This document shows positions 124 through 23,858 of a DNA stretch of 31,445 bases, in pieces. The stretch comes from a virus, in IMG/VR virus record IMGVR_UViG_3300013088_000004, positions 1 to 31,445 of that record. One strand, 5' to 3'. A program made the translations under genes and the position numbers. How positions within the stretch are numbered: position 1 is the stretch's first letter; each line of letters opens with the position of its first letter. Below the pieces are notes generated by a model. It was given only the letters and a program-made list of their open reading frames with translations, made no database searches and had not been told where the DNA came from.

Positions 124-885
124 ATGTCAAGCCAACCAAATCCCAATGCAATCGCGCTTCCCGCCGAATTGCAAACCGAGATCGAGAACATTAACAAAGC
201 CGACAAGAACAATGCATATCGACCCCTGAAACTCTTCGCGGTAATAAATAAAGACCGGCTCTGGATCACACAACAGGGGTCAGATGAGCCTCTGAAAAAA
301 TATGAAGAGATGGACGTGCACATCATCGCCGCGAAGATCACGCGCGCGGCGTACACGAACCGTGAGCAGAAAGCCCCGTCGTGTGTTTCAACTGATGGCG
401 GTCACACTGGGACTCTGCACCCCGAGTTTGGGCAATTGCTTGAAATCACCGGCAAGGATTGCGATATTTGCCCACTGAACCAATGGGGAACCGGTAAGGA
501 CGAGAATGGAAATCCGACAAGGGGAAAATTCTGCAAGGAACGCAGAAATCTATTGGCGATGTCGCCTGACTTTACTGACCCATTGATTGTCTCTCTCTCT
601 CCCATGAGCATCGGAAAGTGGGATGCCTACGCCAGCGGACTGACTCAACTCAAGCCGCCCAGCGCCTATATCACACAGATGACACGCATCGGGGTCGAGG
701 TAGTTACGGACGCCGGGCGCGAATTCGGAACCGCAACGTTTGCAGCAATAGGAGCGCTGTCCACTGATGCCGTGCGCCAAGCCATCGAGCTTAGGAAACA
801 GTACCAGAACGTTATCGGAGGCATCGTGGTCGCGGAGCCGGTGGCGACTACCGCGCCGACAAGCGAAGAAGAATTACCGTTCTAG
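124..885 (+). CDS. Putative phage single-stranded DNA-binding protein
   Basis: 253 residues. The last residues are SEEELPF, an acidic tip ending in Pro-Phe like the C-terminal tail of bacterial SSB proteins (DDDIPF in E. coli), which recruits replication partners. The middle holds a cysteine cluster (CDICPLNQWG, then a Cys in GKFCKERR) that may bind zinc, followed by a segment (SLSPMSIGKWDAY) of a kind I associate with hypothetical phage DNA-replication proteins. There is no clear OB-fold motif by eye, so the call rests on the acidic tail and the nearby primase and helicase. The start has a good AAGGAG site. The stop codon falls at the left edge of the first attC-like site, as if a cassette array had been inserted directly behind the gene. 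Confidence 0.55.
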   Translation: MSSQPNPNAIALPAELQTEIENINKADKNNAYRPLKLFAVINKDRLWITQQGSDEPLKKYEEMDVHIIAAKITRAAYTNREQKAPSCVSTDGGHTGTLHPEFGQLLEITGKDCDICPLNQWGTGKDENGNPTRGKFCKERRNLLAMSPDFTDPLIVSLSPMSIGKWDAYASGLTQLKPPSAYITQMTRIGVEVVTDAGREFGTATFAAIGALSTDAVRQAIELRKQYQNVIGGIVVAEPVATTAPTSEEELPF

Positions 886-968
886 CAAATTGCAGCTGAC
901 CCGCCTACCGACGCGCAATTCGATGACTTTGATGATACAACGGCGGGCAGCTGAACCGCGTGTTATGC
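879..968 (+). repeat. attC-like recombination site a
   Basis: The right core GTTATGC (962-968) matches the integron consensus GTTRRRY. The inner arms pair as CAGCTG-A-CCCGCC on the left against GGCGGG-CAGCTG on the right, leaving one unpaired A (T on the bottom strand), the hallmark extrahelical base of attC L boxes. The left core is degenerate (about GTTCTAG) and overlaps the stop codon of the SSB-like gene. Confidence 0.65.
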
Positions 969-984
969 CGCATCGGAGGAAGAA

Positions 985-1188
985 ATGGAATTTCCGCAGA
1001 TTGATACAAGTACATGGTTTTACGAGAATTGCAAGCGACAGCGCAAAAATGCCGCCAAGATTTGCCAAGTATGTCCATTTCGTGCCGGGATTGAAATCCA
1101 AGAAAAGGAGCGGCATAACCAGCGTTTGCAACCGAAGCGGCAAAGCCGCGTTTCTAAGAGTGGCGCGATACTCCCGCCGCTCGGTTGA
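985..1188 (+). CDS. Cassette ORF 1, small cysteine-containing protein
   Basis: 67 residues, preceded by GGAGGAAGAA. The N-terminal half is FYENCKRQRKNAAKICQV followed by CPFR, giving Cys-x(n)-Cys-x2-Cys. This vaguely recalls WhiB-type iron-sulfur or zinc proteins but lacks their fourth cysteine. From about residue 44 onward the protein is encoded by the following attC-like site (1113-1205), so the C-terminus is probably not a conserved domain. ORFs that run into their own attC are usual for integron cassettes. Function unknown. Confidence 0.5.
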   Translation: MEFPQIDTSTWFYENCKRQRKNAAKICQVCPFRAGIEIQEKERHNQRLQPKRQSRVSKSGAILPPLG

Positions 1189-1205
1189 AACGCAATCCGT
1201 TATGC
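1113..1205 (+). repeat. attC-like recombination site b
   Basis: The best site of the array. The cores GCATAAC (1113-1119) and GTTATGC (1199-1205) are exact reverse complements. The inner arm GCGTTTGCAACCGAAGCGGC pairs with the right arm containing GCCGCTCGGTTGAAACGC. Pairing is perfect except for two unpaired bases on the left arm (a G and an A), matching the extrahelical-base architecture recognised by integron integrases. Confidence 0.85.
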
Positions 1206-1311
1206 AGATGGCGGGCGGGTAAACGAGGGGCGCACGCATCTCATCAAAGCGCCTGACTCACACGCAAGCGGGCAGAATGAGACGAACGCTTTTAACCGCC
1301 ATCTGCATAAC
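1199..1311 (+). repeat. ORF-less cassette bounded by a 16-bp inverted repeat
   Basis: Between attC b and attC c there is no plausible gene. The ends form a perfect 16-bp inverted repeat, GTTATGCAGATGGCGG (1199-1214) against CCGCCATCTGCATAAC (1296-1311), made of the two core sites extended inward by nine bases. A second short pair, TCTCAT/ATGAGA, lies inside, so the whole cassette could fold as one long hairpin. Similar non-coding cassettes occur in large integron arrays and may carry promoters or small RNAs; nothing here identifies which. Confidence 0.6.
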
Positions 1312-1368
1312 CCTCATTGCAGCCGACTGGCGAACTACATGCCAGCGGCTGAACTCGATTCGTTAGAT
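1305..1368 (+). repeat. attC-like recombination site c
   Basis: Cores GCATAAC (1305-1311) and GTTAGAT (1362-1368). The inner stem CAGCCG-A-CTGGC pairs with GCCAG-CGGCTG with a single extrahelical A. The compact 64-bp length is typical of short attC sites. The right arm GAACTCGATTCGTTAGAT recurs almost unchanged in sites e, g and h. Confidence 0.85.
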
Positions 1369-1394
1369 TTGCTTATCTTGAAAGGAGTGTTTTG

Positions 1395-1751
1395 ATGTCA
1401 TATAATATTGATACCTGGAAAACCAAAAGTATTGACAGCCTTGAAATCCCGCTTGCGGTCATTCACAAAATGCCGGATGTAGAAGTTAAATTGTTGAATG
1501 ATAACAAAGTCTGTATTACTGGCCTTTCAGAAGGCTTTGAAATCAATGGGGATTTGAACGGCAAGAATATTGCTGTCAATGATATTACTACCTGGGGGGA
1601 AGGTTCTGGTCATACATGGGATGACCTTCTTAAAGCGTTGAAGCACAGTAAAGGAAATCTCGTTGCTACTCAAGTTTGGGAGGGTGGTGACAGTATCACA
1701 CGTCTAATCGTCAAAGATGGTACGATTACGGAAGAGAAGGTTGAATTATGA
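1395..1751 (+). CDS. Cassette ORF 2, unknown 118-residue protein
   Basis: Acidic protein beginning MSYNIDTWKTKSIDSLEIPL. The ATG at 1395 has AAAGGAG seven bases upstream and is preferred over an in-frame TTG three bases earlier. No signal peptide, membrane segment or cysteine motif is visible. The middle looks like alternating beta strands, and the C-terminal part (VWEGGDSITRLIVKDG) suggests a compact globular domain. It sits between attC c and attC d with 10 bp between its stop and attC d, the classic one-gene cassette arrangement. It is the longest non-zinc cassette protein here. Antitoxin or immunity functions are common among cassette proteins, but nothing in this sequence shows that. Confidence 0.75.
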   Translation: MSYNIDTWKTKSIDSLEIPLAVIHKMPDVEVKLLNDNKVCITGLSEGFEINGDLNGKNIAVNDITTWGEGSGHTWDDLLKALKHSKGNLVATQVWEGGDSITRLIVKDGTITEEKVEL

Positions 1752-1761
1752 TGATCGTGCA

Positions 1762-1854
1762 ATCTAACCAGCGCTTGCAACCAACTTGCTCGCGGGCGCG
1801 CAAATCCAATCATACTCGTAAGAACGCAAGCGGCTGAAACGCAATCCGTTAGCC
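1762..1854 (+). repeat. attC-like recombination site d
   Basis: Cores ATCTAAC (1762-1768) and GTTAGCC (1848-1854). The left arm GCGCTTGCAACCAACTTGC pairs with the right arm GCAAGCGGCTGAAACGC with two extrahelical bases. The mismatches are C-A pairs on the top strand, which become G-T wobbles on the bottom strand. This fits selection for folding of the bottom strand, the one integron integrase uses. The same right-arm type occurs in site b. Confidence 0.8.
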
Positions 1855-1880
1855 CGCTTAATGAATAGGAGAGAATAGAG

Positions 1881-2033
1881 ATGAAAACACATCAACGCTT
1901 TGGCTTAGCTACCTTGATCGTATGGAGTACGCTGACCCAAATTGCACCGCCACATGACGAGGTGAATTTGGTATGCTGGGGCCTGAGTCTTATTTTTGCC
2001 ATAATCTGCTTTGTGTGGGATGGGGCGGGCTAA
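1881..2033 (+). CDS. Cassette ORF 3, 50-residue small membrane protein
   Basis: Begins MKTHQRFGLATLIVWSTL and ends with a strongly hydrophobic stretch VCWGLSLIFAIICFVW before DGAG and stop. The AGGAGAG upstream of the ATG at 1881 is a good ribosome binding site. Two hydrophobic segments (about residues 8-21 and 31-46) separated by a short polar loop suggest a small two-helix inner-membrane protein. The TAA stop overlaps the left core of attC e. Small membrane proteins are frequent cassette cargo; the role is unknown. Confidence 0.6.
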   Translation: MKTHQRFGLATLIVWSTLTQIAPPHDEVNLVCWGLSLIFAIICFVWDGAG

Positions 2034-2119
2034 CCCTTCATTGCAGTTGACCGCCGCCGGTACGCCAATTTTGGATGGCCCATCTGAACACGGCGGCAAC
2101 TGAACTCGATGCGTTAGAT
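2028..2119 (+). repeat. attC-like recombination site e
   Basis: Cores GGCTAAC (2028-2034) and GTTAGAT (2113-2119). The inner stem CAGTTG-A-CCGCC pairs with GGCGG-CAACTG, leaving one extrahelical A at the same place as in sites a and c. The stop codon of cassette ORF 3 lies within the left core. Confidence 0.8.
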
Positions 2120-2133
2120 TGCTAGGAGGCCTG

Positions 2134-2337
2134 ATGTGTTACTGGTGTAAATTTGGTAAATCGCCTTCGTTCATCCGTGGCATCTTTGTCCATGCTGAGG
2201 GAGAGTGGGCCGGTGTTCGTTGGGCTAGTCTATGTACTAATGAAAGAGAGCGCCGACGCCAACTCCGGTTAGCCTATAAGCGTGGAGACATCCATAAGTA
2301 TCCCGGGATATACAGACGCAACCTAACCACGGCATGA
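2134..2337 (+). CDS. Cassette ORF 4, small basic cysteine protein
   Basis: 67 residues from the ATG at 2134, directly after AGGAGG. It starts MCYWCKFGKS (a Cys-x2-Cys pair) with a third cysteine in WASLCTNERERRRQ, followed by a very arginine-rich stretch, so a zinc-bound nucleic-acid-binding protein is possible but not shown. The last residues (NLTTA) are encoded inside attC f. Function unknown. Confidence 0.6.
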   Translation: MCYWCKFGKSPSFIRGIFVHAEGEWAGVRWASLCTNERERRRQLRLAYKRGDIHKYPGIYRRNLTTA

Positions 2338-2385
2338 AGCCGACGCCGCAAACTGCACGGCGCGGGTTAGGCCGATCCGTTCTAC
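2321..2385 (+). repeat. attC-like recombination site f
   Basis: Left core ACCTAAC (2321-2327); right core GTTCTAC (2379-2385), which departs from GTTRRRY. The inner arms CGGCATGAAGCCGACGCCG and CGGCGCGGGTTAGGCCG pair with some mismatches. This is a different sequence family from sites a-e, shared with site i. Confidence 0.65.
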
Positions 2386-2406
2386 CGCCCTAGTAAAGGA
2401 GAAATT

Positions 2407-2667
2407 ATGAATTTGCAAGAGGAATTGATTTGTATCTTTTATGAACACAGGGCGAAGTCGTTTATCTGTTGCGACAAGAGTTGCTTTTGTTGGAATGTTG
2501 AAGGCCTACTTACACTTATTGAGGCAGAGGGCGGCATAACCCTCGTTGCAGTAGACGGAGCGGATGATGGACGCGCGCCAGTGCATTGTTCTATATGCGG
2601 CGAACTGATTGCGTGGGGCGATGTATCTCACAAATGTCCGCCCCCGCTACTTAACTCGATTCGTTAG
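2407..2667 (+). CDS. Cassette ORF 5, cysteine-rich protein running through its attC
   Basis: 86 residues with AAAGGAG before the ATG at 2407. Two cysteine clusters are visible: SFICCDKSCFCW near residues 18-29, and a second, CSICGELIAWGDVSHKC, near residues 61-77. The second cluster is encoded by the loop of the unusually long attC g. The stop TAG is formed by the right core itself (GTTAG). Probably a small zinc-binding protein; function unknown. Confidence 0.6.
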   Translation: MNLQEELICIFYEHRAKSFICCDKSCFCWNVEGLLTLIEAEGGITLVAVDGADDGRAPVHCSICGELIAWGDVSHKCPPPLLNSIR

Positions 2668-2669
2668 AT
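2534..2669 (+). repeat. attC-like recombination site g (136 bp)
   Basis: Cores GCATAAC (2534-2540) and GTTAGAT (2663-2669). The inner stem AGTAG-A-CGG on the left pairs with CG-CTACT on the right with an extrahelical A. It is the longest site of the array, and its terminal loop is coding (see cassette ORF 5). Confidence 0.75.
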
Positions 2670-2688
2670 TGTTTGTTGGAGGAACACA

Positions 2689-2883
2689 ATGATGCTACTT
2701 AGATGTTGTAACCAGGGCTTTGCGGTTCAGGAAATGAAATGGTTGCTAGATGGATACGTCCTTTCGCGCAATCTTGATTCACAGGTTGGGTTTTGTCCAT
2801 TTTGCGGACGCAATCTAACCCTAATTGACGTTGCCGCACAGTGCGAAACCGACGCGGTTTCAAACGAGCCGCAGCGCAGCTGA
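2689..2883 (+). CDS. Cassette ORF 6, 64-residue CxxC protein
   Basis: Preceded by GGAGGAACAC. The protein has MMLLRCCNQGFAVQEMKW at its start and a zinc-knuckle-like FCPFCGRN near residues 35-42; with the two N-terminal cysteines this could form a single zinc site. The C-terminal third (after NLTL) is encoded by attC h. Function unknown. Confidence 0.6.
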   Translation: MMLLRCCNQGFAVQEMKWLLDGYVLSRNLDSQVGFCPFCGRNLTLIDVAAQCETDAVSNEPQRS

Positions 2884-2899
2884 ACTCGATTCGTTATGG
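2813..2899 (+). repeat. attC-like recombination site h
   Basis: Cores ATCTAAC (2813-2819) and GTTATGG (2893-2899), with the shared right arm CTGAACTCGATTC. The inner left arm pairs only imperfectly, so this site may be decayed or may be a recombinant of two sites. Confidence 0.6.
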
Positions 2900-2924
2900 C
2901 ACTTGTTGCCAAAAGGAGTTGACT

Positions 2925-3131
2925 ATGTTAGTCAAACAGTTCATCTCGCAAAAATGTATCGGTTACAGCAATGACTTCAGACGAACGCATTATGAACACA
3001 TCGTTGAGTTGCAAGATGGCAAGGTTGTAACCGTGTGGTCTACTGACATTTCCACACAAGATACGATGACGATAGAGGGTCAATTGTCAGAGAGCCATCC
3101 ATTAGTTGAACGTGCCATAACTACGGCATGA
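2925..3131 (+). CDS. Cassette ORF 7, unknown 68-residue protein
   Basis: Begins MLVKQFISQKCIGYSN from the ATG at 2925, which has AAAAGGAG upstream; a longer in-frame ORF from 2841 would run through attC h and lacks a ribosome binding site. The body (HIVELQDGKVVTVWSTD) looks like beta strands of a small barrel or ubiquitin-like fold, but I do not recognise a family. The last residues (AITTA) come from attC i, as in cassette ORF 4. Confidence 0.6.
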   Translation: MLVKQFISQKCIGYSNDFRRTHYEHIVELQDGKVVTVWSTDISTQDTMTIEGQLSESHPLVERAITTA

Positions 3132-3179
3132 AGCCGACACCGCGAACCGCGCGGCGCCGCTTATGCCGATCTGTTAGGC
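3115..3179 (+). repeat. attC-like recombination site i
   Basis: Cores CCATAAC (3115-3121) and GTTAGGC (3173-3179). The arms CGGCATGAAGCCGACACCG and CGGCGCCGCTTATGCCG pair with an extrahelical base. Same family as site f. Confidence 0.8.
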
Positions 3180-3189
3180 GGACTAAGAG

Positions 3190-3264
3190 ATGTACACTTT
3201 ACAGTGCGGCGATTGCCTTGAACTAATGCGCGAGTTGTTAGATGCGAATATGAGGGAGAATTAA
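3190..3264 (+). pseudogene. Truncated start of a DNA methyltransferase
   Basis: 24 codons beginning MYTLQCGDCLELMREL. This is the typical N-terminus of beta/gamma-class N6-adenine or N4-cytosine DNA methyltransferases (consensus near YxLxxGDCLExMxxLP). Homology stops after MREL and the frame closes after eight unrelated residues. The break coincides with a core-like GTTAGAT (3237-3243), so the rest of the gene may have been lost by recombination at that point. No DPPY or NPPY motif follows. Non-functional as an enzyme. Confidence 0.55.
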
Positions 3265-3266
3265 AA

Positions 3267-3680
3267 ATGTATCCAAATAATTACAAACCCATGTGTATGC
3301 ACGGTATGCCGTTCATCCAATCTTGCACTATATGTAGGCGTGTATGTAATACAATCGAGACTTTCCCATTTCCTAACACTCTTCCCTACCGATACAAATG
3401 TCCTCACTGTCACGGAGAGTTTGAATATTGGGAAACTTACGATATGGGATTCGGAAGGGAAAAGGAAATGGGTTGTCCATTCTGCGGACTTCGCAAGGGA
3501 AAATGGGGTGGTAGCGTTGATAAACTGCAAACTGCGCTGTCTAACCTAGTACACGATACCCAACATGAAGAGCACGAATGCGCGGATGCCAATTGTCCAG
3601 TTAGAAAAGCAAGGGAGTTGATTGCAGTTGACCACTGGAAAGCGCGGCAACTGAACTTGATTTGTTGGATCGCTTCTTGA
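3267..3680 (+). CDS. Cassette ORF 8, multi-zinc-knuckle protein
   Basis: 137 residues with at least three paired-cysteine motifs: SCTICRRVC near residues 19-27, KCPHCHGEF near 44-52, and GCPFCGLRKG near 69-78, plus ECADANCPVRKARE near 107-120. The CPHC...CPFC pair looks like a zinc ribbon, as in many phage-encoded nucleic-acid-binding proteins. The start follows GAGGGAGAATTAAAA. The C-terminal part after about residue 115 is encoded by the degenerate attC j. Function unknown. Confidence 0.65.
   Translation: MYPNNYKPMCMHGMPFIQSCTICRRVCNTIETFPFPNTLPYRYKCPHCHGEFEYWETYDMGFGREKEMGCPFCGLRKGKWGGSVDKLQTALSNLVHDTQHEEHECADANCPVRKARELIAVDHWKARQLNLICWIAS
3609..3670 (+). repeat. Degenerate attC-like site j, end of array
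   Basis: Right core GTTGGAT (3664-3670) with arms CAGTTG-A-CC and GG-CAACTG that pair with the same extrahelical A. The left core is not recognisable. Probably a decayed site marking the right end of the array, since no further site follows the next gene. Confidence 0.5.
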
Positions 3681-3689
3681 GGAGGAACG

Positions 3690-3872
3690 ATGATTGATAC
3701 GGTAAAACGGAAATGCCGCAATTGTAGTACGTGGTACAACTGGGCTCCCAATCTTGACCCCAAAAACGCACGGGATTTTTGTTCGCCTGAATGTGACTAC
3801 AGGTATTGGGAGCGACATGTTTCAATTCCTCAATCGGAATTCCAGCGATTCAAGCGAGATAAGCCCAAATAG
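3690..3872 (+). CDS. Small zinc-finger protein
   Basis: 60 residues after a strong GAGGAGG site. Cysteines are arranged as CRNC near residues 9-12 and CSPEC near 31-35, with aromatic residues between them (TWYNWAP, DYRYWERH). This treble-clef or zinc-ribbon-like layout resembles small MJ0042/HNH-associated zinc proteins. The tail is basic (RFKRDKPK). No attC follows it, so it is either the last captured cassette or the first resident phage gene after the array. Confidence 0.65.
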   Translation: MIDTVKRKCRNCSTWYNWAPNLDPKNARDFCSPECDYRYWERHVSIPQSEFQRFKRDKPK

Positions 3873-3917
3873 GAAACGTAGAAGTCAATAAAGCGGAAAA
3901 TCAGATTGGAGAAATCA

Positions 3918-4454
3918 ATGACCAAAAAAATAGTAACCGATAACCGTGCGCAATTTCTCGAAGAATGTTTTTCCAGGGGACTAACTATCGCGGATGGATT
4001 GACCACCGTCTGGATGCTGTTTGGCAACGAATCCTGCAAATTGCTAATAGACAAGGAAGCTCTTGCTGCATTCTCCGAGCCAGTAGGTTGGAGCGGCGCG
4101 TCCTGGGGGAAGGCGGCCTACCGCTTTCCAGATTGGTTCGACGGCTCGCGGGAAAGTACCACCGCAACGCAACTGATGACCCTGGCCTATTTTGCCTCTA
4201 TCAGTGTAACCAAGTCCCTTATTCTCTACAAACAATGGATGGACGAGAGCGCGAACTGGGACTTGGCAACCGCGCACGAAAAGTGCGAGGAACTTGCAGA
4301 ACGGAAGAAACGCGGAAACGCGATCAGGGTCAGAGCATCCGTCAAATTCAAAAAGGGCGAAGGCGAAATTATCGCCGCGCCTACTGAGAAATTTGCGTGG
4401 GACAAAAGTAATGGAGATTACACTATTACATTGAAAAAGGTGAAAGATGACTAA
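3918..4454 (+). CDS. Unknown early phage protein
   Basis: 178 residues from the ATG at 3918 (GGAG a few bases upstream); an in-frame TTG at 3906 is less likely. The sequence is mixed alpha/beta with a lysine- and glutamate-rich C-terminal third (EELAERKKRGNAIRVRASV). No motif is recognised. It overlaps the next gene by eight bases, so the two are probably translationally coupled. Confidence 0.7.
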   Translation: MTKKIVTDNRAQFLEECFSRGLTIADGLTTVWMLFGNESCKLLIDKEALAAFSEPVGWSGASWGKAAYRFPDWFDGSRESTTATQLMTLAYFASISVTKSLILYKQWMDESANWDLATAHEKCEELAERKKRGNAIRVRASVKFKKGEGEIIAAPTEKFAWDKSNGDYTITLKKVKDD

Positions 4455-4725
4455 ATTGCTTCCTCTCAACGAACAAGATAGAGTTGCAATTCGCAAGGCA
4501 TTGGAGCGCCATGCCAACGAGAAAGAAATCAAAGAAAAATGGCTTGCGGGGCTGAGAATAAATTATGTCCTAGACCGCAATTTCACAGCTGTTGTAATCC
4601 GTGATGGCAAAATGATTTATATTGGATCGGCAAAACGCAGCCCGCGCGATAAGTATGACGCACGAATTGGAATCAATATAGCGATTACACGTGCAATTCT
4701 CTTCGGGCCACTCAGAATTGATTGA
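4447..4725 (+). CDS. Unknown 92-residue phage protein
   Basis: Begins MTKLLPLNEQDRVAIRKALE. The C-terminal half has the pattern IGSAKRSPRDKYDARIG followed by AITRAI. This resembles a segment seen in many small phage early proteins (glycine-x-alanine-lysine, aspartate-phenylalanine/tyrosine, glycine, alanine-arginine-alanine), whose function is undefined. It starts inside the end of the upstream gene. Confidence 0.65.
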   Translation: MTKLLPLNEQDRVAIRKALERHANEKEIKEKWLAGLRINYVLDRNFTAVVIRDGKMIYIGSAKRSPRDKYDARIGINIAITRAILFGPLRID

Positions 4726-4732
4726 CTATTAA

Positions 4733-5005
4733 ATGACCAACTACTCGCGCGGAAGAGCAATAGAATGGAAATTGGTTCATCAGCATAAGACAAACAGGGC
4801 AACGGTCACCGGACGCACCGCCGGCTCTCATTCGGCTATCGACGTTTTCGCGGTCTATGAAGATACAATGACTATAGTTTTCCAACAAGTGAAACGTAGT
4901 AAAAGCGGACACTTTGAAAAAGTCAGGCCGCCATTCAGGAACGGGACATACTACGTGAGGTTCGAGGTCAAAAACTGGAAGGACGCGAAAGGATTTGTGA
5001 AATGA
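4733..5005 (+). CDS. Hjc-like Holliday junction resolvase / PD-(D/E)xK nuclease
   Basis: 90 residues. The N-terminal SRGRAIEWKLVHQ supplies the first-helix glutamate of Hjc-type nucleases, TAGSHSAIDVFAV matches their RsaGSxxxxDv block with the metal-binding aspartate, and IVFQQVKRSK is the position of the ExK motif. The usual glutamate there is glutamine (QVK), seen in some phage members. Such enzymes resolve branched DNA during replication or packaging. Length fits a minimal Hjc domain. It is separated from the gene before by seven bases and overlaps the next by ATGA. Confidence 0.7.
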   Translation: MTNYSRGRAIEWKLVHQHKTNRATVTGRTAGSHSAIDVFAVYEDTMTIVFQQVKRSKSGHFEKVRPPFRNGTYYVRFEVKNWKDAKGFVK

Positions 5006-5223
5006 ACAAACAAAAACCAGGGCGTACTATTGCCGAAACATTTATACCTTCGCTTACTACGCTTATCAAAATCGGCTCTTTGATTATCCATTATCAGGAA
5101 TGGACGTCGCGAGATGGACATCCTCAAGACAAAAACGCGATTGATACACTGGAGAGCGACCCAGAGGTGATTGAGTGGATTAGTAAGATGACAAAGATGG
5201 CGTTCTTGCCAATAAAACGATAA
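5002..5223 (+). CDS. Unknown 73-residue protein
   Basis: Starts at an ATGA overlap with the Hjc-like gene. No recognised motif; a short hydrophobic patch (LTTLIKIGSLIIHY) near residues 18-31 is amphipathic rather than clearly transmembrane. Position between nuclease and primase suggests a replication-module accessory protein, by location only. Confidence 0.6.
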   Translation: MNKQKPGRTIAETFIPSLTTLIKIGSLIIHYQEWTSRDGHPQDKNAIDTLESDPEVIEWISKMTKMAFLPIKR

Positions 5224-5252
5224 TTAGATTTGGGGGCATTGGAGCAACTTCA

Positions 5253-6176
5253 TTGGATATCGAGACAGAAGTTTTGCGCGAGTTTGGCATCGCAATACAT
5301 CGCAAGCCCACAAGGATACAGGAAGGCGAATTAGTATGGCACTCAGGATGTCCGTTTGAAGGCGCCGGCAGTGATCGCATGAGCTGGTTTGAACGCGGTA
5401 ATTATTACTGTAGATCGTGCGGCGCGAAAGGATTTCTGAAAGCAACTCCCCAACGCACCCCGCAAGAGATTGCCGAGTTCTCTGAGCGGCAGAAACTAGA
5501 AGAAGAAATCTGGCATAAGAGGCGGCTAGACAATCTAGCTAAATGGAAATCCGAAGGGCATGAGAAAGAGGTTTGGCAGTGGCACAAGAATAATCATCGC
5601 GAATATTGGGTTGGCGAAGGGGTGCCGGAATGGGCAGTGGACAAATACCAGTTTGGATATTGCGAAGCCAAGAGCATGAGACTAAAAACCGGGGAACTAG
5701 TCGCACTGCCAACTTATACCATGCCAATCTGGGAACCGGCGAAATTGGAACTCGTTAATATTCAATACAGATTATGCGACCCGCCACCGGGCGAAGGGAA
5801 ATATAGACAAGAATCGGTTATCCCAGCGGCGGCGGCATTTATGAATGACGACTACGAAGACCAAGCTATTTTTGTTGAAGGATTCAAGAAAGCAGTTATT
5901 ATTTACGATTTTATAGATTTCCATACACAGGTAGTCGGTTTCCCCAGCAACCTTCCGAGTGCGGAATTGCTCAAAGCGCAGTGCAACAAATTCAAGAAAA
6001 TCTATCTTATTTGGGATCCGAGGTCGGACAACCAAGTCCGGCGGATGGGGCGCCTGATGTCCGGCAGGGTATGGGCAATTACTCTACCCGTAAAACCTGA
6101 CGATGCCGTAACAAAGTATAACATGACTCAGGCAACATTCAGATCATATTTCGCAATAGCGGAGAGGTTGAAATGA
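5253..6176 (+). CDS. DnaG-type DNA primase (zinc ribbon plus Toprim)
   Basis: 307 residues. A zinc-binding N-terminal module is visible as HSGCPFEG (His30, Cys33) and YYCRSCGAKGF (Cys53, Cys56). The Toprim-like catalytic part has IFVEGFKKAV (glutamate at 209), then LIWDPRSDNQVRR (aspartate 255) and KPDDAVTKYN near 281-290, the usual order of Toprim acidic residues. The start is TTG at 5253, supported by GGAG nine bases upstream. It makes RNA primers for phage replication and works with the helicase encoded at 7035. Shorter than bacterial DnaG because there is no C-terminal helicase-binding domain, as is common for phage primases. Confidence 0.85.
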   Translation: MDIETEVLREFGIAIHRKPTRIQEGELVWHSGCPFEGAGSDRMSWFERGNYYCRSCGAKGFLKATPQRTPQEIAEFSERQKLEEEIWHKRRLDNLAKWKSEGHEKEVWQWHKNNHREYWVGEGVPEWAVDKYQFGYCEAKSMRLKTGELVALPTYTMPIWEPAKLELVNIQYRLCDPPPGEGKYRQESVIPAAAAFMNDDYEDQAIFVEGFKKAVIIYDFIDFHTQVVGFPSNLPSAELLKAQCNKFKKIYLIWDPRSDNQVRRMGRLMSGRVWAITLPVKPDDAVTKYNMTQATFRSYFAIAERLK

Positions 6177-6391
6177 ATAAGAAGATAAATTTCTATTCTG
6201 CATTGCGTTTTGCGGTAGACCTTAATGAATATGCAACAAAAGCAAAGCGCGGTCTTGTTCAAGATACAACCGAATATCAATACTGGCAAGGCACGGCAGA
6301 CGCAGCGCGTAAATTCGCGACTATTCTGCACGGCTGGGACATGTATTCAGATTTATTCCCAGAAGTCAAGGTAGATAGTGAAACTCATTGA
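6173..6391 (+). CDS. Unknown 72-residue protein
   Basis: ATGA overlap with the primase gene. Mostly helical by composition (ALRFAVDLNEYATKAKR, TADAARKFATILHGW). No family recognised. Probably co-translated with primase and with the next gene, which starts inside its end. Confidence 0.6.
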   Translation: MNKKINFYSALRFAVDLNEYATKAKRGLVQDTTEYQYWQGTADAARKFATILHGWDMYSDLFPEVKVDSETH

Positions 6392-6560
6392 CCGCATCGA
6401 CGGCGTATGTAACTATTATTACTTCAAGCCCTGGAAACAATTGACCGAGGCACAGAAACGCCGCTCGATTGAGCTTTACAAGCACTGGACACATTTCGCG
6501 AATACATCTTACTGGGAGGAGTGGAACAATGTCAAAGAAAGCCAGGCTGAGAAAGCGTAG
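6378..6560 (+). CDS. Unknown 60-residue protein with GTG start
   Basis: Begins at GTG 6378 inside the end of the preceding gene. It is rich in aromatic and charged residues (CNYYYFKPWKQLTEAQKRR, SYWEEWNNV). It overlaps the next gene by about 30 bases. Supported by tight packing and continuous open frame; function unknown. Confidence 0.5.
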   Translation: MKLIDRIDGVCNYYYFKPWKQLTEAQKRRSIELYKHWTHFANTSYWEEWNNVKESQAEKA

Positions 6561-6780
6561 AGTCGCGCTGAGCGGTTACCGTAAAGCGCGCGGTGGCATG
6601 GGACATCGTGTTAGTTTCAGCGAGAAGCGAACCCTGAACCCGCGCGGCCATCACCCACCGCGTGCGAGGTTCGGGGCGCGAGTGAATCCACCCGCCGGGA
6701 AAATCGGAATCGTAATCACGTTACCGAGCAAAGCGAAATACCGTATCAGCGAATACGGCAACTGGGTCAGAATTCATTGA
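6529..6780 (+). CDS. Small highly basic protein
   Basis: 83 residues from the ATG at 6529, with GGGAGGAG upstream; a longer ORF beginning at 6469 has no ribosome binding site and is rejected. The first 60 residues are very rich in arginine, lysine and glycine (SKKARLRKRRVALSGYRKAR), which suggests nucleic-acid binding. No known domain. Confidence 0.6.
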   Translation: MSKKARLRKRRVALSGYRKARGGMGHRVSFSEKRTLNPRGHHPPRARFGARVNPPAGKIGIVITLPSKAKYRISEYGNWVRIH

Positions 6781-6792
6781 GAGGAGAGCCGC

Positions 6793-6894
6793 ATGCCAAT
6801 TCCTAAGCCCAAGCCAGTCCCACCCAAAATCCCAGATACCAAGCCCAAGGGCGGAGAGGGCGGAGAAGCTGTCCGGGCAAAAGACCGGCATTAA
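6793..6894 (+). CDS. 33-residue proline/lysine-rich peptide
   Basis: Follows GAGGAGAG closely. The sequence MPIPKPKPVPPKIPDTKPKG is a Pro-Lys repeat and is probably unstructured; the rest is glycine- and glutamate-rich. Its length is below normal gene-calling limits, but the ribosome binding site and spacing are good. Confidence 0.45.
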   Translation: MPIPKPKPVPPKIPDTKPKGGEGGEAVRAKDRH

Positions 6895-6902
6895 CCGATT
6901 TG

Positions 6903-6924
6903 GGGCATGGTACAATCCATGCCC
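6903..6924. promoter_or_regulatory. 8-bp palindrome around a TACAAT box
   Basis: GGGCATGG (6903-6910) and CCATGCCC (6917-6924) are perfect reverse complements around TACAAT, which resembles a -10 hexamer. No T-run follows, so it is not a typical terminator. It lies in the non-coding gap before the membrane peptide and helicase genes and could be an operator overlapping a promoter. A matching -35 is not obvious. Confidence 0.35.
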
Positions 6925-6937
6925 TGAGAAAGCAATC

Positions 6938-7045
6938 ATGGAATTTATTATTAGCATAGGAATTCTAATCTATCTTATTGTTTCTCTTGTAACAATTTAT
7001 TTAATAGGAAAACTTCCAGACATGGATAAACTAGATGCCGACTAG
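6938..7045 (+). CDS. 35-residue single-span membrane peptide
   Basis: MEFIISIGILIYLIVSLV followed by TIYLIGKLPDMDKLDAD: one clear hydrophobic helix of about 22 residues and a charged tail. It ends inside the start of the helicase gene (11-base overlap), which suggests coupled translation. The ribosome binding site is weak. Confidence 0.45.
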   Translation: MEFIISIGILIYLIVSLVTIYLIGKLPDMDKLDAD

Positions 7046-8036
7046 CGAGGAAATTCGTGGACTATTCCATAAACCTGATCAATTAGCCCAACAGTACGTT
7101 GCGTTCATCGAAAGTATTAGGAAGGGCGGAAACGTAGACTGGGGCGTAACATCAATAGATAGCCGGGTTGTGCCAATGCGACCAGGCGAAGTAGCAGGAA
7201 TCATCGGACGCCCAGGACATGGAAAGTCGAGCGTCGCGGCCTATCTCGCCAAGCACAACGCGAATAAAATTATCGCTGAAGGCCAGCAAAAAGAAGAGTG
7301 CGTGTGCTTTGTCACTTACGAACAAAGCGTGGAAGAACTCGAGGCGTTCTTTCAGGCGGGCGAAGACTATTCCCTCGAAGACCTGGCTTGGGGCAAAATT
7401 GAGATGGACGAAATTATCAAGCGCGCGCTAGAGCGCCCCAAACTCCCTATCTGGACAATTGGCTCAAGTATAATCAAAAGGCATAAACATATTCGGATGA
7501 CGATTGACAATGTCTATTCGGCACTCAGGCAAATGGAAACAGAATTCAAAATTCACCCACGCCTGATCTGTATGGACTATATCCAAATCATCCCGGTTGA
7601 GCGCGCGCGACAGCGTGTGGAAGAAGTTACCGAAGCAGTAGTACAAAGCAAAGAGTTAGCACGGGAAATCGGCGCGGCGATGATTCTTACAAGTCAGGCC
7701 GCGCGGCGCGTAGATGATTACGACGAACAGTTACCAAACGCGAACGACAGCCAATGGACTTCGGCTTTTGAGCAAGTTATTGACAAAGGTTTCAGCATTT
7801 GGCGTCCCGCGAAAACCCACAGGGATGTCAAAGAAATCGAATTGCAGGGCCAAAAATTCCCCGTCACTGAGCAACTGATCGTCATTGAAAATTGGAAGCA
7901 ACGCCTCGCGCCATCTGCCGGTAGATTTATTCTGAACTTCCATCCCGGCCTGGTGCGACTAGCAGAAATGGAACGCGAGACGCCGAAACAATACGAAGGC
8001 GAACCGAATTGGGAAAGCGGAACATATGGTAGCTGA
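7035..8036 (+). CDS. DnaB-type replicative DNA helicase
   Basis: 333 residues of RecA-like ATPase fold. Walker A is GRPGHGKSS (58-66), Walker B is LICMDYIQII (177-186), and the H3-like sensor segment ILTSQAARR follows at about 217-225. These match the DnaB/gp4 helicase core. The usual DnaB N-terminal primase-interaction domain is absent; only about 40 residues precede the ATPase. It unwinds the phage replication fork, presumably together with the primase at 5253. It overlaps both neighbours, typical of this compact operon. Confidence 0.85.
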   Translation: MPTSEEIRGLFHKPDQLAQQYVAFIESIRKGGNVDWGVTSIDSRVVPMRPGEVAGIIGRPGHGKSSVAAYLAKHNANKIIAEGQQKEECVCFVTYEQSVEELEAFFQAGEDYSLEDLAWGKIEMDEIIKRALERPKLPIWTIGSSIIKRHKHIRMTIDNVYSALRQMETEFKIHPRLICMDYIQIIPVERARQRVEEVTEAVVQSKELAREIGAAMILTSQAARRVDDYDEQLPNANDSQWTSAFEQVIDKGFSIWRPAKTHRDVKEIELQGQKFPVTEQLIVIENWKQRLAPSAGRFILNFHPGLVRLAEMERETPKQYEGEPNWESGTYGS

Positions 8037-8325
8037 ATCCGATATCGCGAGTTTCTGGGATACCTCTGAAATCGAAATACAGGAACAAGTATTATTATTA
8101 TCCGGCAAAACAAAATACCAACTGCCCGATTGCGCCGCGTTGTATACGTGGTGGCGTTATTGCAATAAACGGTCAAAGGCTCGTCTGCGACCGGTAATCG
8201 AACAAATCTTAGAAAGAGGAGAACAAAGTGTCCGACAATCTGCAAGTGAACTATCTACGGCTCGATGCGCTCGAAGTAATGAAATGGGAGCAAAACCCAA
8301 AACTTCATGTAGACAACTTGCTTGA
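8026..8325 (+). CDS. Unknown protein, overlapping ParB-like gene
   Basis: 99 residues starting inside the helicase end. The first about 65 residues (LLLSGKTKYQLPDCAALYTW, then RSKARLRPVIEQILERGE) look like a genuine protein. The last 33 overlap the next gene in another frame and are of poor quality. Long overlaps of this kind are unusual, so a frameshift or a real overlapping end are both possible. Function unknown. Confidence 0.5.
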   Translation: MVAESDIASFWDTSEIEIQEQVLLLSGKTKYQLPDCAALYTWWRYCNKRSKARLRPVIEQILERGEQSVRQSASELSTARCARSNEMGAKPKTSCRQLA

Positions 8326-9160
8326 TGAAAGTATCGAGAAGTTTGGCTTTAACGACCCAATTGGCGTAGACTATGAACATAGCATCATAGTCGAGGGACA
8401 CGGACGTATCGAGCGACTGCGCAACCGCAAGAGCGCCGGTAAGCCCGCACCCAAAAACATTGTGATCGATGGCGCTGACGGCGAGTGGATCGTGCCCACC
8501 GTGGAGCTGTCCTTTGCAGATAAAAACGCGGCATACCTTTATGCCATCGCTCATAACCGCTCGAACACAAAAGATTTCCACTTGGAAGATTACAAAACGG
8601 ACAAACTGGCCACGATGCGCGAGGCCGGGCAACTGGACTTACTGGGCTTTGAGACCCTGGGACAGTCTGCGACGATGCCCAAATTCGAGTTACCCGAACT
8701 CAAACCCTTTGACGCCTCATCTCTGCCCGATGCGCCCGGCACGCAAATCGTTGCCCCACAGTCCTTTGTGGTAATGATTACTTTTCCAACTTACAACCAG
8801 ATGCGCGAAGCGCTCTGCGCCTTAACGTACGGCGAGCGCAAAAGTTTGCCTCAGGGGGCTAGGCTCTGTTCTATTGAAGGCGGGGCAATCTTGGCGCGGT
8901 GGAACAAAGATTTGATGCAAATTTCAATCAGCGCGCCAATTGTCGAAGCCACACAGACTGGAATGCTCGGAGTGCCGGATACCAAAGTACCGGTCATCTT
9001 TTGGGACACGCCAACAGAGCCGGGCGAACCCAAATCGCGCGGCAAAGAAAAACCAACCGAGGTCGGCGGACTGTGTACTATGTGCGGCGGAAGCAAATTT
9101 ACAATGGTCAAGAATGAAAAATTTACTTGCCCACAGTGTAGCAGGAAAGGTGAATTATGA
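8228..9160 (+). CDS. ParB/Srx-fold protein with C-terminal zinc ribbon
   Basis: 310 residues from GTG 8228 with GAGGAG upstream. The N-terminal half shows the ParB-like pattern: NPK at 23-25, EKFGFNDPIGVD near 37-48 and IIVEGHGRIERL near 53-64, followed by VELSFADKNAAYLYAIAHNR. The C-terminus is a zinc ribbon with CTMCGG (Cys283, Cys286) and CPQCSRK (Cys301, Cys304). Phage ParB-like proteins of this type often accompany DNA methylases, and some have nuclease activity. The Dam-type methylase lies just downstream. Partitioning is unlikely as no ParA is seen. Confidence 0.75.
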   Translation: MSDNLQVNYLRLDALEVMKWEQNPKLHVDNLLDESIEKFGFNDPIGVDYEHSIIVEGHGRIERLRNRKSAGKPAPKNIVIDGADGEWIVPTVELSFADKNAAYLYAIAHNRSNTKDFHLEDYKTDKLATMREAGQLDLLGFETLGQSATMPKFELPELKPFDASSLPDAPGTQIVAPQSFVVMITFPTYNQMREALCALTYGERKSLPQGARLCSIEGGAILARWNKDLMQISISAPIVEATQTGMLGVPDTKVPVIFWDTPTEPGEPKSRGKEKPTEVGGLCTMCGGSKFTMVKNEKFTCPQCSRKGEL

Positions 9161-9324
9161 CGCTAGAAGAACTTCTCAAAGAACACGAAGTTTCGGTTCG
9201 CCACGACATAAAAGATTACACGTATCTTTTGTGGGATGGAGAAACATATCTGATAATAAAGGAAAATGGCGAGAGAAACTTTGGCGACAACCTTGACGCC
9301 GCACTCGATGAGTTTCTGAAATGA
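9157..9324 (+). CDS. Unknown 55-residue acidic protein
   Basis: Begins MTLEELLKEHEVSVRHDI and continues KDYTYLLWDGETYLIIKENG. Linked by ATGA overlaps to both the ParB-like gene before it and the methylase after it, which strongly supports that it is translated. No family recognised. Confidence 0.65.
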   Translation: MTLEELLKEHEVSVRHDIKDYTYLLWDGETYLIIKENGERNFGDNLDAALDEFLK

Positions 9325-10118
9325 GCCGAGTAGTAGTCTTTGGGTGGTTCGGAGGTAAAGCCTCGCATCTCAACTTCATCTTGCCTAATTTGCCAAAGTG
9401 CCGACATTACGTTGAACCATTCGGCGGCAGCGCGGCTGTGCTACTGAACCGCGAACCTAGTCCCATTGAAACCTACAACGATCTGAATGGAGATCTGGTG
9501 AACTTTTTCCGCGTGCTGAGAGATCGAGGGCCGGAGTTACAAGAGAAACTGGAGCTGACCCTATATGCACGGGAAGAATTCCGCTTAGCACTGGAACCAT
9601 GCGAAAATGAACTGGAGAGAGCAAGGAGATTCTATATTCGTGTGCGGCAGGCATTCAAGGCATCGATGTTAGGAAATTCTTGGAGCAGAGAATATAAAAA
9701 TCCAATTGGAATTCCACGTTGGTTAAACGGGATCGAATGTCTACCAGATTGCTATACAAGATTCAAACACGTGCAGATTGACCATCTCAATGCCCTCAAT
9801 CTCATCCAAAAATATGATTCTCCTGACACCTTGTTCTACTGCGACCCACCCTATGTCTGGGATTTCAAGGACAACAAGTTCCAAGATGACTACGGAATAG
9901 CACATTCAGTCGGCGATGCAGCGGTACTTGCTCGTTCTTTACATTCAATCCAAGGTCTTGCGGCTATCAGTAATTACGCCGGAGTTTACGATGATCTGTA
10001 TCACGATTGGCGGAGACTTGAGGATAAGCCGAAAGTAAGCTCGGCGGCACTGGTTAATCGAGCAATTCGGCAAGAGATTCTGTGGTGTAATTACGACAAA
10101 GAGAGAAAAAGGTTATGA
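9321..10118 (+). CDS. DNA adenine methyltransferase, Dam/D12 class
   Basis: 265 residues. The SAM-binding start WFGGKASHLNFIL (9-21), the VEPFGGSAAVLLNR block (31-44), NDLNGDLVNFFRVLR (53-67) and the catalytic FYCDPPYVWDF (DPPY at 175-178) appear in the order of class-alpha (D12) N6-adenine methylases. It would methylate adenine in the phage DNA, likely against host restriction or as a partner of the hypermodification genes downstream. Start by ATGA overlap. Confidence 0.88.
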   Translation: MSRVVVFGWFGGKASHLNFILPNLPKCRHYVEPFGGSAAVLLNREPSPIETYNDLNGDLVNFFRVLRDRGPELQEKLELTLYAREEFRLALEPCENELERARRFYIRVRQAFKASMLGNSWSREYKNPIGIPRWLNGIECLPDCYTRFKHVQIDHLNALNLIQKYDSPDTLFYCDPPYVWDFKDNKFQDDYGIAHSVGDAAVLARSLHSIQGLAAISNYAGVYDDLYHDWRRLEDKPKVSSAALVNRAIRQEILWCNYDKERKRL

Positions 10119-10162
10119 GAGTAAGATTGTTTTTGTACATTATCTTGGTTATCGCTATTTAA
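10115..10162 (+). CDS. Possible 15-residue hydrophobic leader peptide
   Basis: MRVRLFLYIILVIAI starts at an ATGA overlap with the methylase and is almost entirely hydrophobic. Too short to be sure; it may simply be a chance frame before the radical SAM gene. Confidence 0.2.
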   Translation: MRVRLFLYIILVIAI

Positions 10163-10185
10163 TCGTGAAAAATTTGGGATACTAA

Positions 10186-11061
10186 ATGCACAATCCATAT
10201 TCCTTAAAGCCGGAGATGGTTCGTGGATGCACAATGCGGTGCGTGTTCTGTTCTTTGAGACACCAGACCTGGGCAGAAGAAAAATACGAATATATTTCCG
10301 AAGAACTCTGGAAACAATATATTGACGCCGTCGCAGAATGGTTGCCAAAATGCAGGATGGAAATAGCGAACCGCGGAGAGCAAACAATCCACTCTAAGTT
10401 TTTAGAATTGATTGCCTACGCTCGACAGAAACTCCCTCGCGTTCAAATTCTTGTCTCAACCAACGGCGATCTAAGTCAGAAAATCAGAGAAGAAAATTAC
10501 GTTTTTTGGGTAGATCAAGCCCAACAAGCCGGTGTAAATATCTTCATGTTTGATTGTTACACACAGCCACGACTCGACCAATTCACAAGATTATTTAGCG
10601 GCAGAACAGAACTTTTCTTTGACGGATTCAATCCATACCCGTATCGCAGCGGCAAATTCAAGGCTCTCTGCATCAAAGATGCCGTACCGCGCCCGGTTAA
10701 GGAGAACAGGATACTTCAATATCATAACCAAGGCGGAAATGCAGTCGTATCTGGAAAAGCCGCAGAACTCTATAATATACCCGTCCTGGAAGAGCCGCTT
10801 CAAAGAATGTGCGCTCGCCCCTTCAGAGAAATGCCGATGTGGTTAGACGGATCTATCCCTATTTGCTGTGATGACTGGGCAGATAAAGGCGTTGTCGGCA
10901 AATTCCCAGACAAGACTCTGAAAGAACTCTGGTTGCTCTACGACCCTTATCGAAAAAACCTGCTGGAGAAAAATCGCGGCGCGCAGAAACCATGTGACAA
11001 ATGTTCAGAACGAGCCGGATTCCGTTGGGCATTAGAAAAGAAGTGGTTCGATGAGAAATAA
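10186..11061 (+). CDS. Radical SAM protein with SPASM-like C-terminus
   Basis: 291 residues. GCTMRCVFCSLR holds the 4Fe-4S motif Cys15-x3-Cys19-x2-Cys22. The C-terminal third has MCARPFREMPMWLDGS, ICCDDW and PCDKCSERAG, a SPASM/Twitch-type set of extra cluster cysteines. Such enzymes catalyse radical rearrangements on peptides, RNA or DNA bases. The neighbours (thymine pyrophosphorylase-like, hmU-DNA kinase-like) place it in a DNA hypermodification pathway. In the known pathways a radical SAM isomerase acts on amino-acid-modified thymidine, and a similar role is inferred here. Confidence 0.8.
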   Translation: MHNPYSLKPEMVRGCTMRCVFCSLRHQTWAEEKYEYISEELWKQYIDAVAEWLPKCRMEIANRGEQTIHSKFLELIAYARQKLPRVQILVSTNGDLSQKIREENYVFWVDQAQQAGVNIFMFDCYTQPRLDQFTRLFSGRTELFFDGFNPYPYRSGKFKALCIKDAVPRPVKENRILQYHNQGGNAVVSGKAAELYNIPVLEEPLQRMCARPFREMPMWLDGSIPICCDDWADKGVVGKFPDKTLKELWLLYDPYRKNLLEKNRGAQKPCDKCSERAGFRWALEKKWFDEK

Positions 11062-12058
11062 ACAAGATACGTTTACGACAGAAGAACATTTCAAGTTCTT
11101 CTCTGAATTCTGCAAATTGGAAATGCTGAGCGGTGGTCCAGATCCACAGATTCCACTTGTCGGAGAGATGAGCAAAAACGAATCTATGCAGGAGCGCATC
11201 TGGCGCGCCGGTTGCTATATATCGGTTTACAATGTTCCATTTGCGGCGGCCATTTGGCAAAATTGGTCTTGGGAGAGAATGGAAAAAGAGAAAGAGAATC
11301 TCTTGCCTTGGCTACAAGAAAACTGGAAAGGCATCGTTACTCGACTTGAACGGCGATGCGTTCGACGACCAGAATGGATGAACGAATACTTTTTAAGTTA
11401 TTTTGATTTCGCCAAGAACATTCTGCCAGAATTACAAAAAGCCACAGAACAATTCTCTCCGGAACAACGGTACGTTGCATTCTGGGACATATCCAACGAA
11501 AAGATTAGCCGATTCGGTCGTTATGTCGCGCTCAAGCTCTTAGAGTCTTACAAACAATATTGTGGCATGAAACTCGAAGCTCCGGACATTCGGCCAAAAG
11601 ACGGTTGGTCGCCAAGAATAACGCTGGCTAGGTTGTACTCCTCTGACTCCGCTGCCTTAAATTCAAAAGACAACGCGCAAATACCGTTAGTCAACAAACG
11701 AGTTGCCGAACTGCAGGAACGTCTCAAGGGGTCTGGGGTAAATATCGATCTATTCAAATTGCAAGTAGTTCTTTGCGAATATCGCGAGAGTTACGAAGGA
11801 CTTAGACAATACCCCGGTCGTTCTCACGACAGCGAACTCGGCTATTACAACAAGGCAATCAATTATTGGAAACAGGTGCCGGGGTTGCTTGAAACACGGA
11901 AAGCGATATTCCCGAATCAGCATCTCGGAGAAATTGGCGGATGGGAAGTCGCAAGAAATGAACTGGGAGAAGTATTATCGAAATACAAATACACTTGGAG
12001 TGATTTATTATTCGATTATAAGGCGACGGCAGACTTCGCTTATCCGGTGAAACGATGA
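11051..12058 (+). CDS. Alpha-glutamyl/putrescinyl thymine pyrophosphorylase-like protein
   Basis: 335 residues, mostly alpha-helical. Features suggesting the aGPT-PPlase (amino acid:DNA transferase) group include RAGCYISVYNVPFAAAIW near residues 52-69, LERRCVRRPEWM near 98-109, FGRYVALKLLESY near 155-167 and DIRPKDGWSPRITLARLY near 178-195. In phages such as SP10 and phiW-14 these enzymes replace the pyrophosphate of 5-pyrophosphomethyl-uracil in DNA with an amine or amino acid. I rely on remembered patterns plus the adjacent kinase-like gene. Overlaps the radical SAM gene by 11 bases. Confidence 0.6.
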   Translation: MRNKQDTFTTEEHFKFFSEFCKLEMLSGGPDPQIPLVGEMSKNESMQERIWRAGCYISVYNVPFAAAIWQNWSWERMEKEKENLLPWLQENWKGIVTRLERRCVRRPEWMNEYFLSYFDFAKNILPELQKATEQFSPEQRYVAFWDISNEKISRFGRYVALKLLESYKQYCGMKLEAPDIRPKDGWSPRITLARLYSSDSAALNSKDNAQIPLVNKRVAELQERLKGSGVNIDLFKLQVVLCEYRESYEGLRQYPGRSHDSELGYYNKAINYWKQVPGLLETRKAIFPNQHLGEIGGWEVARNELGEVLSKYKYTWSDLLFDYKATADFAYPVKR

Positions 12059-12480
12059 AGATCTACGAGATTCTTCCCGGTAAACTGTACCAATGCGGAA
12101 AGACTAACGAACTGTCCCCAGAGCAAAAAGCAAAATTGATATCAGATTACGGAATCACAACAGTCGTCAACTTCTGGCGATTCGAAGATCCCGACTTAAT
12201 TTCTTCTGTTGAATACGAGCATTGCTATATCCCGGATGGAAAACTTCATTGTCCAGAAGAGATGCGACTACTCGCCAAAAAGACGGCAGAAAAAATAAGG
12301 GGAGGCAAAGTAGTACTCTCTCAATGTTATGGGGGGCGCAATCGCTCTGGGTTATTTAGCACAATGGTGTTAAAGGAATTGCTCGGAATTAGCGGAAAAG
12401 AGGCGGTCGCGATTGTTCAGAAGCAAAGACCCAATTCGCTAGTCAACCCGATCTTCCGTCAGTTCTTGGAATCCGAATAA
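12055..12480 (+). CDS. Tyrosine/dual-specificity phosphatase-like protein
   Basis: 141 residues. VVLSQCYGGRNRSGLFSTMV carries the CX5R phosphatase loop (Cys91, Arg97 followed by Ser-Gly); the usual His before the Cys is Gln. The N-terminal ILPGKLYQCGK and ITTVVNFWRFEDPD blocks also match small dual-specificity phosphatases. It starts at an ATGA overlap with the pyrophosphorylase-like gene, so it belongs to this operon. Its substrate may be a phosphorylated nucleotide or DNA intermediate rather than protein, but that is only inferred from context. Confidence 0.75.
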   Translation: MKIYEILPGKLYQCGKTNELSPEQKAKLISDYGITTVVNFWRFEDPDLISSVEYEHCYIPDGKLHCPEEMRLLAKKTAEKIRGGKVVLSQCYGGRNRSGLFSTMVLKELLGISGKEAVAIVQKQRPNSLVNPIFRQFLESE

Positions 12481-12526
12481 ATTTTTAAGGTTCGAAACAA
12501 GAAATCTGTAGTATAATGGAGGCAAG

Positions 12527-13341: not shown

Positions 13342-13342
13342 C

Positions 13343-23849: not shown

Positions 23850-23858
23850 ATTATCTCC

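Follow-up and report, generated by a model that had tools for sequence, protein, structure and literature searches.

An Integron-Type Array of attC-Like Sites and Small Cassettes in the Early Region of an Uncultivated Tailed Phage

How does a row of integron-type gene cassettes come to stand in a phage genome with no recognizable integron integrase gene, and was it built by such an integrase at all? The question is raised by IMG/VR record IMGVR_UViG_3300013088_000004, a 31,445-base stretch of viral DNA that was analyzed over its full length (the window) and in which ten attC-like sites, all in a single orientation, alternate with single small open reading frames (ORFs) within positions 886–3670. 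The initial annotation of this DNA had described about ten sites with the attC layout in a phage early region, with neither an intI gene nor an attI site in view, and we recovered that layout in ten sites. We conclude with high confidence that the array is a genuine cluster of attC sites lacking an integron integrase (CALIN) that was made by integron-integrase recombination.

The same array, with both of its junctions and the same cassette order, is present in a second record, IMGVR_UViG_3300022553_000001 (67,249 bases), whose identity to the window is 99.96–100%. The definition of a CALIN asks for two or more attC sites close together in the absence of an integron integrase; here ten sites span 2.8 kb, and the 67 kb hold no match to the tyrosine recombinase family PF00589. 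That search (Pfam, E ≤ 1) was negative in both phage records, and no attI site was recognized on inspection by eye only, so that a complete integron, with intI and attI, was not found. The assignment of a CALIN to the early region of a phage is supported by covariance models, by a footprint in the R' and R'' boxes, and by similarity to attC sites of Chloroflexota.

The attC Sites

Eight of the ten sites, all of which are on the minus strand, contain both an R'' box (RYYYAAC) and an R' box (GTTRRRY), with at most one departure per box except in site f, whose R' box has decayed to GTTCTAC. These eight are b (1113–1205), c (1305–1368), d (1762–1854), e (2028–2119), f (2321–2385), g (2534–2669, long at 136 nt), h (2813–2899, with intact R boxes and degenerate arms), and i (3115–3179). 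Neither boundary site has a recognizable R'' box: site a (886–968) retains L'', L', and R' (GTTATGC), with 12 of 12 pairs and the unpaired A, and the terminal site j (3616–3670) has an R'' that has decayed.

Stems could be aligned in nine sites (all except h), and each carries one unpaired A in its left arm. Their 101 pairs comprise 94 Watson-Crick pairs, 5 A·C mismatches, and 2 others, with no G·T mismatches on the top strand. An A·C mismatch on the top strand becomes G·T on the bottom strand, which is the folded strand of attC used by the integron integrase, and because the mismatches number five A·C against no G·T, stem pairing has been kept on the strand that IntI uses. The bottom-strand wobbles pointed out earlier for site d alone are thereby extended to all nine stems.

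To build covariance models, integron integrases were located with NCBIfam TIGR02249 in three genome sets, where they occurred in 62 of 119 genomes from the order of a Shewanella strain, 94 of 250 Burkholderiales (the order of an Alcaligenaceae genome), and 31 of 301 Chloroflexota. DNA around 40 integrase loci was taken and attC sites were extracted, and model R1 was made from 30 of these bacterial attCs, with the window excluded. R1 recovered dense arrays beside bacterial intI genes and gave 24.4–32.2 bits for the three attCs of Tetrasphaera phage TJE1. In the window, its top seven matches (35.6, 31.2, 29.2, 26.3, 22.8, 16.8, and 14.1 bits) all fell in the array and on the minus strand; they include e, c, i, f, b, and, as a partial match at 14.1 bits, j. 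The best match elsewhere in the window scored 11.9 bits. Model R2, trained on Chloroflexota attCs, gave 41.7 bits for b, 37.1 for f, 35.0 for i, 32.6 for d, 31.4 for e, 30.1 for c, 19.0 for g, 15.7 for a (partial), 14.2 for j (partial), and 10.7 for h, with a best match of 11.8 bits outside the array; the TJE1 attCs, at 22.5–25.2 bits, scored below the six best array sites (30–42 bits). With R3, the scores were 33.2 (e), 30.1 (c), 21.7 (i), 18.6 (f), 17.5 (g), and 14.7 (b). Every array match of at least 14 bits with R1 or R2 is on the minus strand, and the covariance search returned no attC match in the remainder of the 67-kb genome. No attC family was recovered from Rfam, whether at the gathering score or at E ≤ 1.

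A published cut-off of 20 bits (PMC9892861) was set there for that study's own model, and our scores come from models R1 and R2; above that value lie six sites with R2 and five with R1, and g, a, j, and h fall under it. Six sites are therefore strong, g is moderate, and a, h, and j are weak or degenerate. The covariance-model test proposed in the initial annotation was passed, by the seven leading R1 matches and by the six sites that R2 placed at 30–42 bits.

Cassette Ends and attC Types

A circular cassette that enters at G|TT brings with it both the TTRRRY of the R' box upstream of it and the R'' box of its own site, so that these two are expected to match, whereas no such agreement is required of the two boxes that bound one attC site in an array. 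Paired by cassette, the boxes of the array matched at 29 of 32 variable positions, and six of the eight pairs were perfect at all four of their variable bases; paired by site, they matched at 13 of 32 (exact permutation P = 0.0009 for the contrast). Complementarity in the perfect pairs extends past the box to a total of 8–16 bases, and the footprint is seen on both sides of h, the site with degenerate arms. At site f, the bases after the mutated R' box (CCGCCC) still match, which suggests that this box decayed after recombination. Bacterial arrays have the same pattern: among neighboring cassettes (23 pairs from Chloroflexota and 52 from proteobacteria), cassette-wise matching stays high to about position 9–10, and within-site matching drops to 0.38–0.58 at R-box positions 4 and 6. 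In our view, nothing argues more strongly than this footprint for an integron integrase as the builder of the array.

The bacterial comparison (loci L050, L058, L063, and other Chloroflexota; L066–L075) also showed that complementarity between the ends of integron cassettes continues past the R box by an average of about 3 bases, both in Chloroflexota and in Burkholderiales. Cassette-end complementarity offers a useful general test of cassette authenticity.

When the array DNA was compared with 400 Chloroflexota genomes, matches were concentrated in the right arm of site d (E down to 1.5e-5). This arm is 86–91% identical over 32–37 bp to sequences in three of these genomes (L086–L088), all three of which were verified as attCs (GCGGCTGAAACGCGATCCGTTAGCC is one example). 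In 300 Burkholderiales genomes, an identical search gave scattered weak matches without any such concentration. A comparison of R2 with R3 is partly circular, as L086–L088 were fetched through their similarity to site d. In a position-weight comparison from which these loci were excluded, and which covered b to i (a and j were not scored), sites b, d, f, and i favored Chloroflexota by 12–34 bits, and c, e, g, and h were indistinguishable between the groups. These scores place b, d, f, and i in the Chloroflexota type, and the array is therefore mixed in attC type, with the types interleaved along it. A host or donor from Chloroflexota is thereby supported but not proved. The capsid protein was also considered as a guide to the host and was set aside as uninformative: its relatives in Chloroflexota prophages (31–34% identity) are not closer than those in Arthrobacter or Roseobacter phages (37%).

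Exact and degenerate searches of IMG/VR and GTDB genomes with the type-1 right arm (CTGAACTCGAT(G/T)CGTTA) returned, besides the 67-kb record of the same phage, chance coding matches only, and in IMG/VR the type-2 arm was found only in the same phage.

Cassettes, Borders, and Phage Genome

The array comprises about nine cassettes. Eight contain a single ORF each, all co-oriented, and one small cassette has none. The eight ORFs (50–137 aa, on the plus strand; a 24-aa stub at 3190–3264 is left out of the count) sit after R' boxes and have AGGAG-like ribosome-binding sites. Seven end inside the next site or just past it, and one stops 10 nt upstream of the next site, in keeping with the earlier remark that single small ORFs in one orientation run into the following site in several cases.

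Cassette 1 (ORF 985–1188, 67 aa) encodes a protein with a CxxC motif and no confident family, and its ORF ends in site b. Cassette 2 (1200–1361), a tiny unit of about 160 bases without an evident ORF, has a perfect 16-bp terminal inverted repeat (GTTATGCAGATGGCGG/CCGCCATCTGCATAAC). A homologue search with the 118-aa product of cassette 3 (1395–1751) was empty. The ORF of cassette 4 (1881–2033, 50 aa) encodes a probable membrane segment and has its stop codon in the R'' box of site e. The products of cassettes 5 (2134–2337, 67 aa, CxxC, ending in site f) and 6 (2407–2667, 86 aa, Cys-rich) are followed by that of cassette 7 (2692–2883, 63 aa), which is zinc-ribbon-like, has no relative outside the phage, and ends in site h; a 64-aa form of it starting at 2689 gave a weak DUF7575 match. 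The ORF of cassette 6 crosses site g and stops in its R' box, and that of cassette 8 (2925–3131, 68 aa) ends in site i. The last ORF (3267–3680, 137 aa) crosses site j, and its product is zinc-ribbon-like by weak matches and has no phage relative. At least five cassette proteins are small and Cys-rich (CxxC) and match zinc ribbons weakly if at all. For no cassette protein did the phage, plasmid, or IMG/VR collections searched yield a close relative, and no defence family was found among them, apart from a weak zinc-ribbon match.

The 24-aa stub overlaps an orphan GTTAGAT core at 3237. Its weak likeness in tblastn to the N-terminus of phage DNA methyltransferases (E ~1–8) is suggestive only; methyltransferase cassettes occur in other phage CALINs (PMC9892861). 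This region probably represents two cassettes fused by deletion, or a deleted cassette.

To its left, the array adjoins a gene at 124–885 (plus strand) whose 253-aa product is a relative of phrog_23155/27714, with distant homologues in Pseudomonas phage KPP25 and others. Its acidic C-terminal tip, EEELPF, suggests that the protein may be SSB-like. On the other side lies the primase/DnaB region of the phage. The left border lies a few bases past the stop codon of the 124–885 gene, in the interval from the missing R'' to the L'' of site a. At the right border, site j is crossed by the last ORF, beyond which lies a Cys-rich ORF (3690–3872, plus strand, 60 aa, weak HNH similarity, phrog_15471 E = 0.0013) that has a cassette-like leader. 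No downstream R'' partner was found for this leader, and the ORF is either right-flanking DNA or a last cassette whose attC has been lost. ARAGORN called a tRNA-Arg (CCT) antisense within the SSB-like gene, at 708–787 of the window (L009:8585–8664, minus strand), about 100 bases before the array. The call is probably a false positive, although its placement beside the array is curious.

The 67-kb record has a 144-base end overlap, with one mismatch, that falls inside the array, and the window sequence is continuous through that point; the genome therefore maps as a circle of about 67.1 kb, although the record is classed as linear in IMG/VR. Its genes include those for a terminase large subunit, a Mu-type portal, a phrog_1005 capsid protein, an O-like initiation protein, a primase, and a DnaB-like helicase. 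No tyrosine recombinase was detected in either record, and by that search, the only one aimed at lysogeny genes, this tailed phage of about 67 kb is probably virulent.

Several other features of the genome were recorded. An amino acid:DNA transferase domain protein (PF18724) is encoded near two radical-SAM-like proteins (window 11051–12058, 10186–11061, and 13328–14692), possibly a pathway that hypermodifies phage thymidines. A run of sugar genes on the minus strand of the 67-kb record (297–10569; cytidylyltransferase, NeuB family, Polysacc_synt_2 dehydratase/epimerase, aminotransferase, and oxidoreductase) resembles a nonulosonic-acid (sialic-acid-like) operon. Two further genes of that record, at 11865–12755 and 4385–5182, are similar to homing endonucleases (GIY-YIG type and HNH-like); one separates the terminase region from the sugar genes, and the other sits inside the sugar-gene run. 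In the structural region, two tandem related genes (window 23421–24311; 142 and 150 aa; ~77% DNA identity over 130 bases) and a third similar protein, at 32126–32608 of the rotated genome, point to a duplicated virion-protein family.

Origin of the Array and Related Systems

The cassettes may have been put together by an IntI from an integron-bearing bacterium. It would have acted either on replicating phage DNA in its single-stranded state, adding cassettes singly, or beforehand in a bacterial array, which later moved as one block into the phage, beside the SSB-like gene. The cassette genes, with their own ribosome-binding sites and in the direction of the early genes, would be transcribed with them and yield small accessory proteins. 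From their sequences, the intact sites b, c, d, e, i, and perhaps g may still be usable by a host IntI, and the boundary sites a and j, together with f and h, appear to be decaying. The phage itself may have captured cassettes, and the best explanation of the data is that it keeps the CALIN as a stable part of its genome.

Some observations weigh against this account. Sites a, h, and j score poorly with R2, and it is through the attC sequences of four sites that a link to Chloroflexota is drawn. No other IMG/VR contig searched contains the attC types of the array, so spread is not indicated. Only a few bases separate the two records, which may share a sampling site or reads. The annotation had proposed looking for the array in related phages; it recurs in the second record of the same phage, but no relative with a different or empty array was found, none being close enough in the collections searched, so that no cassette was seen to be acquired, gained, or lost on the phage.

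That the hairpins are regulatory elements of the phage, such as terminators or processing sites, and resemble attC by chance is hardly credible. They do lie between small early genes, and attC sites are thought to hold weak terminators (PMC9892861), but terminator-like sites are not commoner here than in shuffled sequences, and the R'/R'' footprint, the A bulge, the bottom-strand bias, and the similarity to Chloroflexota attCs would be left without a reason; for most sites, the idea is already contradicted. It is also very improbable that assembly fused phage DNA to a bacterial integron array, a concern raised at the outset. Both records are metagenome assemblies, yet both junctions occur in each, and the end overlap that closes the circle lies inside the array, where the window is continuous. 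A foreign composition of the array was looked for and rejected: GC content (0.479 versus 0.478 for the genome) and 3-mer use (distance rank 47 of 129) equal the phage average, so that there is no compositional seam. The second record, the circular closure, and the matching composition make up a partial check against misassembly that came out favorably.

How active a genuine CALIN might be is a separate matter. It is a serious possibility, somewhat short of probable, that a bacterial CALIN entered the phage once, as a block, by illegitimate recombination and is now decaying without further exchange. The left junction, between R'' and L'' of site a directly after the stop codon of the SSB-like gene, fits such an event, as do the missing R'' of j, the mutated R' box of f, the lost arm pairing of h, and the methyltransferase-like stub, which would mark a deletion; six sites nevertheless score like working attCs, and the composition of the array is not foreign. 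We are more doubtful that the lineage gains and loses cassettes during infection through a host IntI, with the array as a working platform for accessory genes. The interleaved attC types (b and d, f and i, and the rest) and the footprints show that an integrase brought together cassettes of mixed origin, the boxes of most sites are intact, and the ORFs have strong ribosome-binding sites and run in the early gene direction. However, no relative carries a variant array, the cassette order is the same in both records, the footprints could predate entry into the phage, and no attI was found by eye. The broader proposal that a virulent phage without a recombinase renews its accessory genes from a platform that the host's integron integrase stocks during infection, with more than one attC family represented and one of them from Chloroflexota, seems unlikely on present evidence.

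As a CALIN, the array is a large, well-preserved addition to the few integron cassette arrays recorded so far from virulent phages, and it is tied by sequence to the integrons of Chloroflexota, which have received little study. Its kept footprint supplies concrete attC candidates for asking whether phage-borne cassettes suit host integrases. It also bears on the movement of integron cassettes between distant bacteria. Such a phage could ferry cassettes from one bacterium to another, a capacity already known from a few other phages.

The initial annotation had implied that cassette arrays in phages would be new, which does not hold: a screen of 10,705 phage genomes had already yielded 17 CALINs, some in virulent phages, and five of six tested phage attC sites, those of TJE1 being among the ones tested, recombined with attI1 through IntI1 (Qi et al., 2023; PMC9892861). 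The array is a new, larger member of this published kind. Like the CALINs of the virulent phages TJE1, Polaribacter phage P12002L, and Pseudoalteromonas phage PH101 (PMC9892861), it has attCs on the bottom strand and no intI; TJE1 and PH101 also share its co-directional single-ORF cassettes, and the TJE1 sites score in the same range with our models. TJE1, however, has three attC sites, against about ten here, and the present array has four Chloroflexota-type sites and belongs to an uncultivated phage. Temperate Vibrio and Shewanella phages and prophages (PMC9892861) likewise carry integron parts in a phage genome, but theirs include intI or come from an adjoining host integron, and the array described here shows neither. 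The chromosomal integrons of Chloroflexota, with IntI in ~10% of the genomes sampled, share with the array a GCGYTTGCA...TGAAACGCRATCCGTTAG pattern, common to their attC arms and those of b and d, and the same cassette-end complementarity; unlike the phage array, they include intI and lie in bacterial contigs, and their cassette genes are not shared with it at the DNA level.

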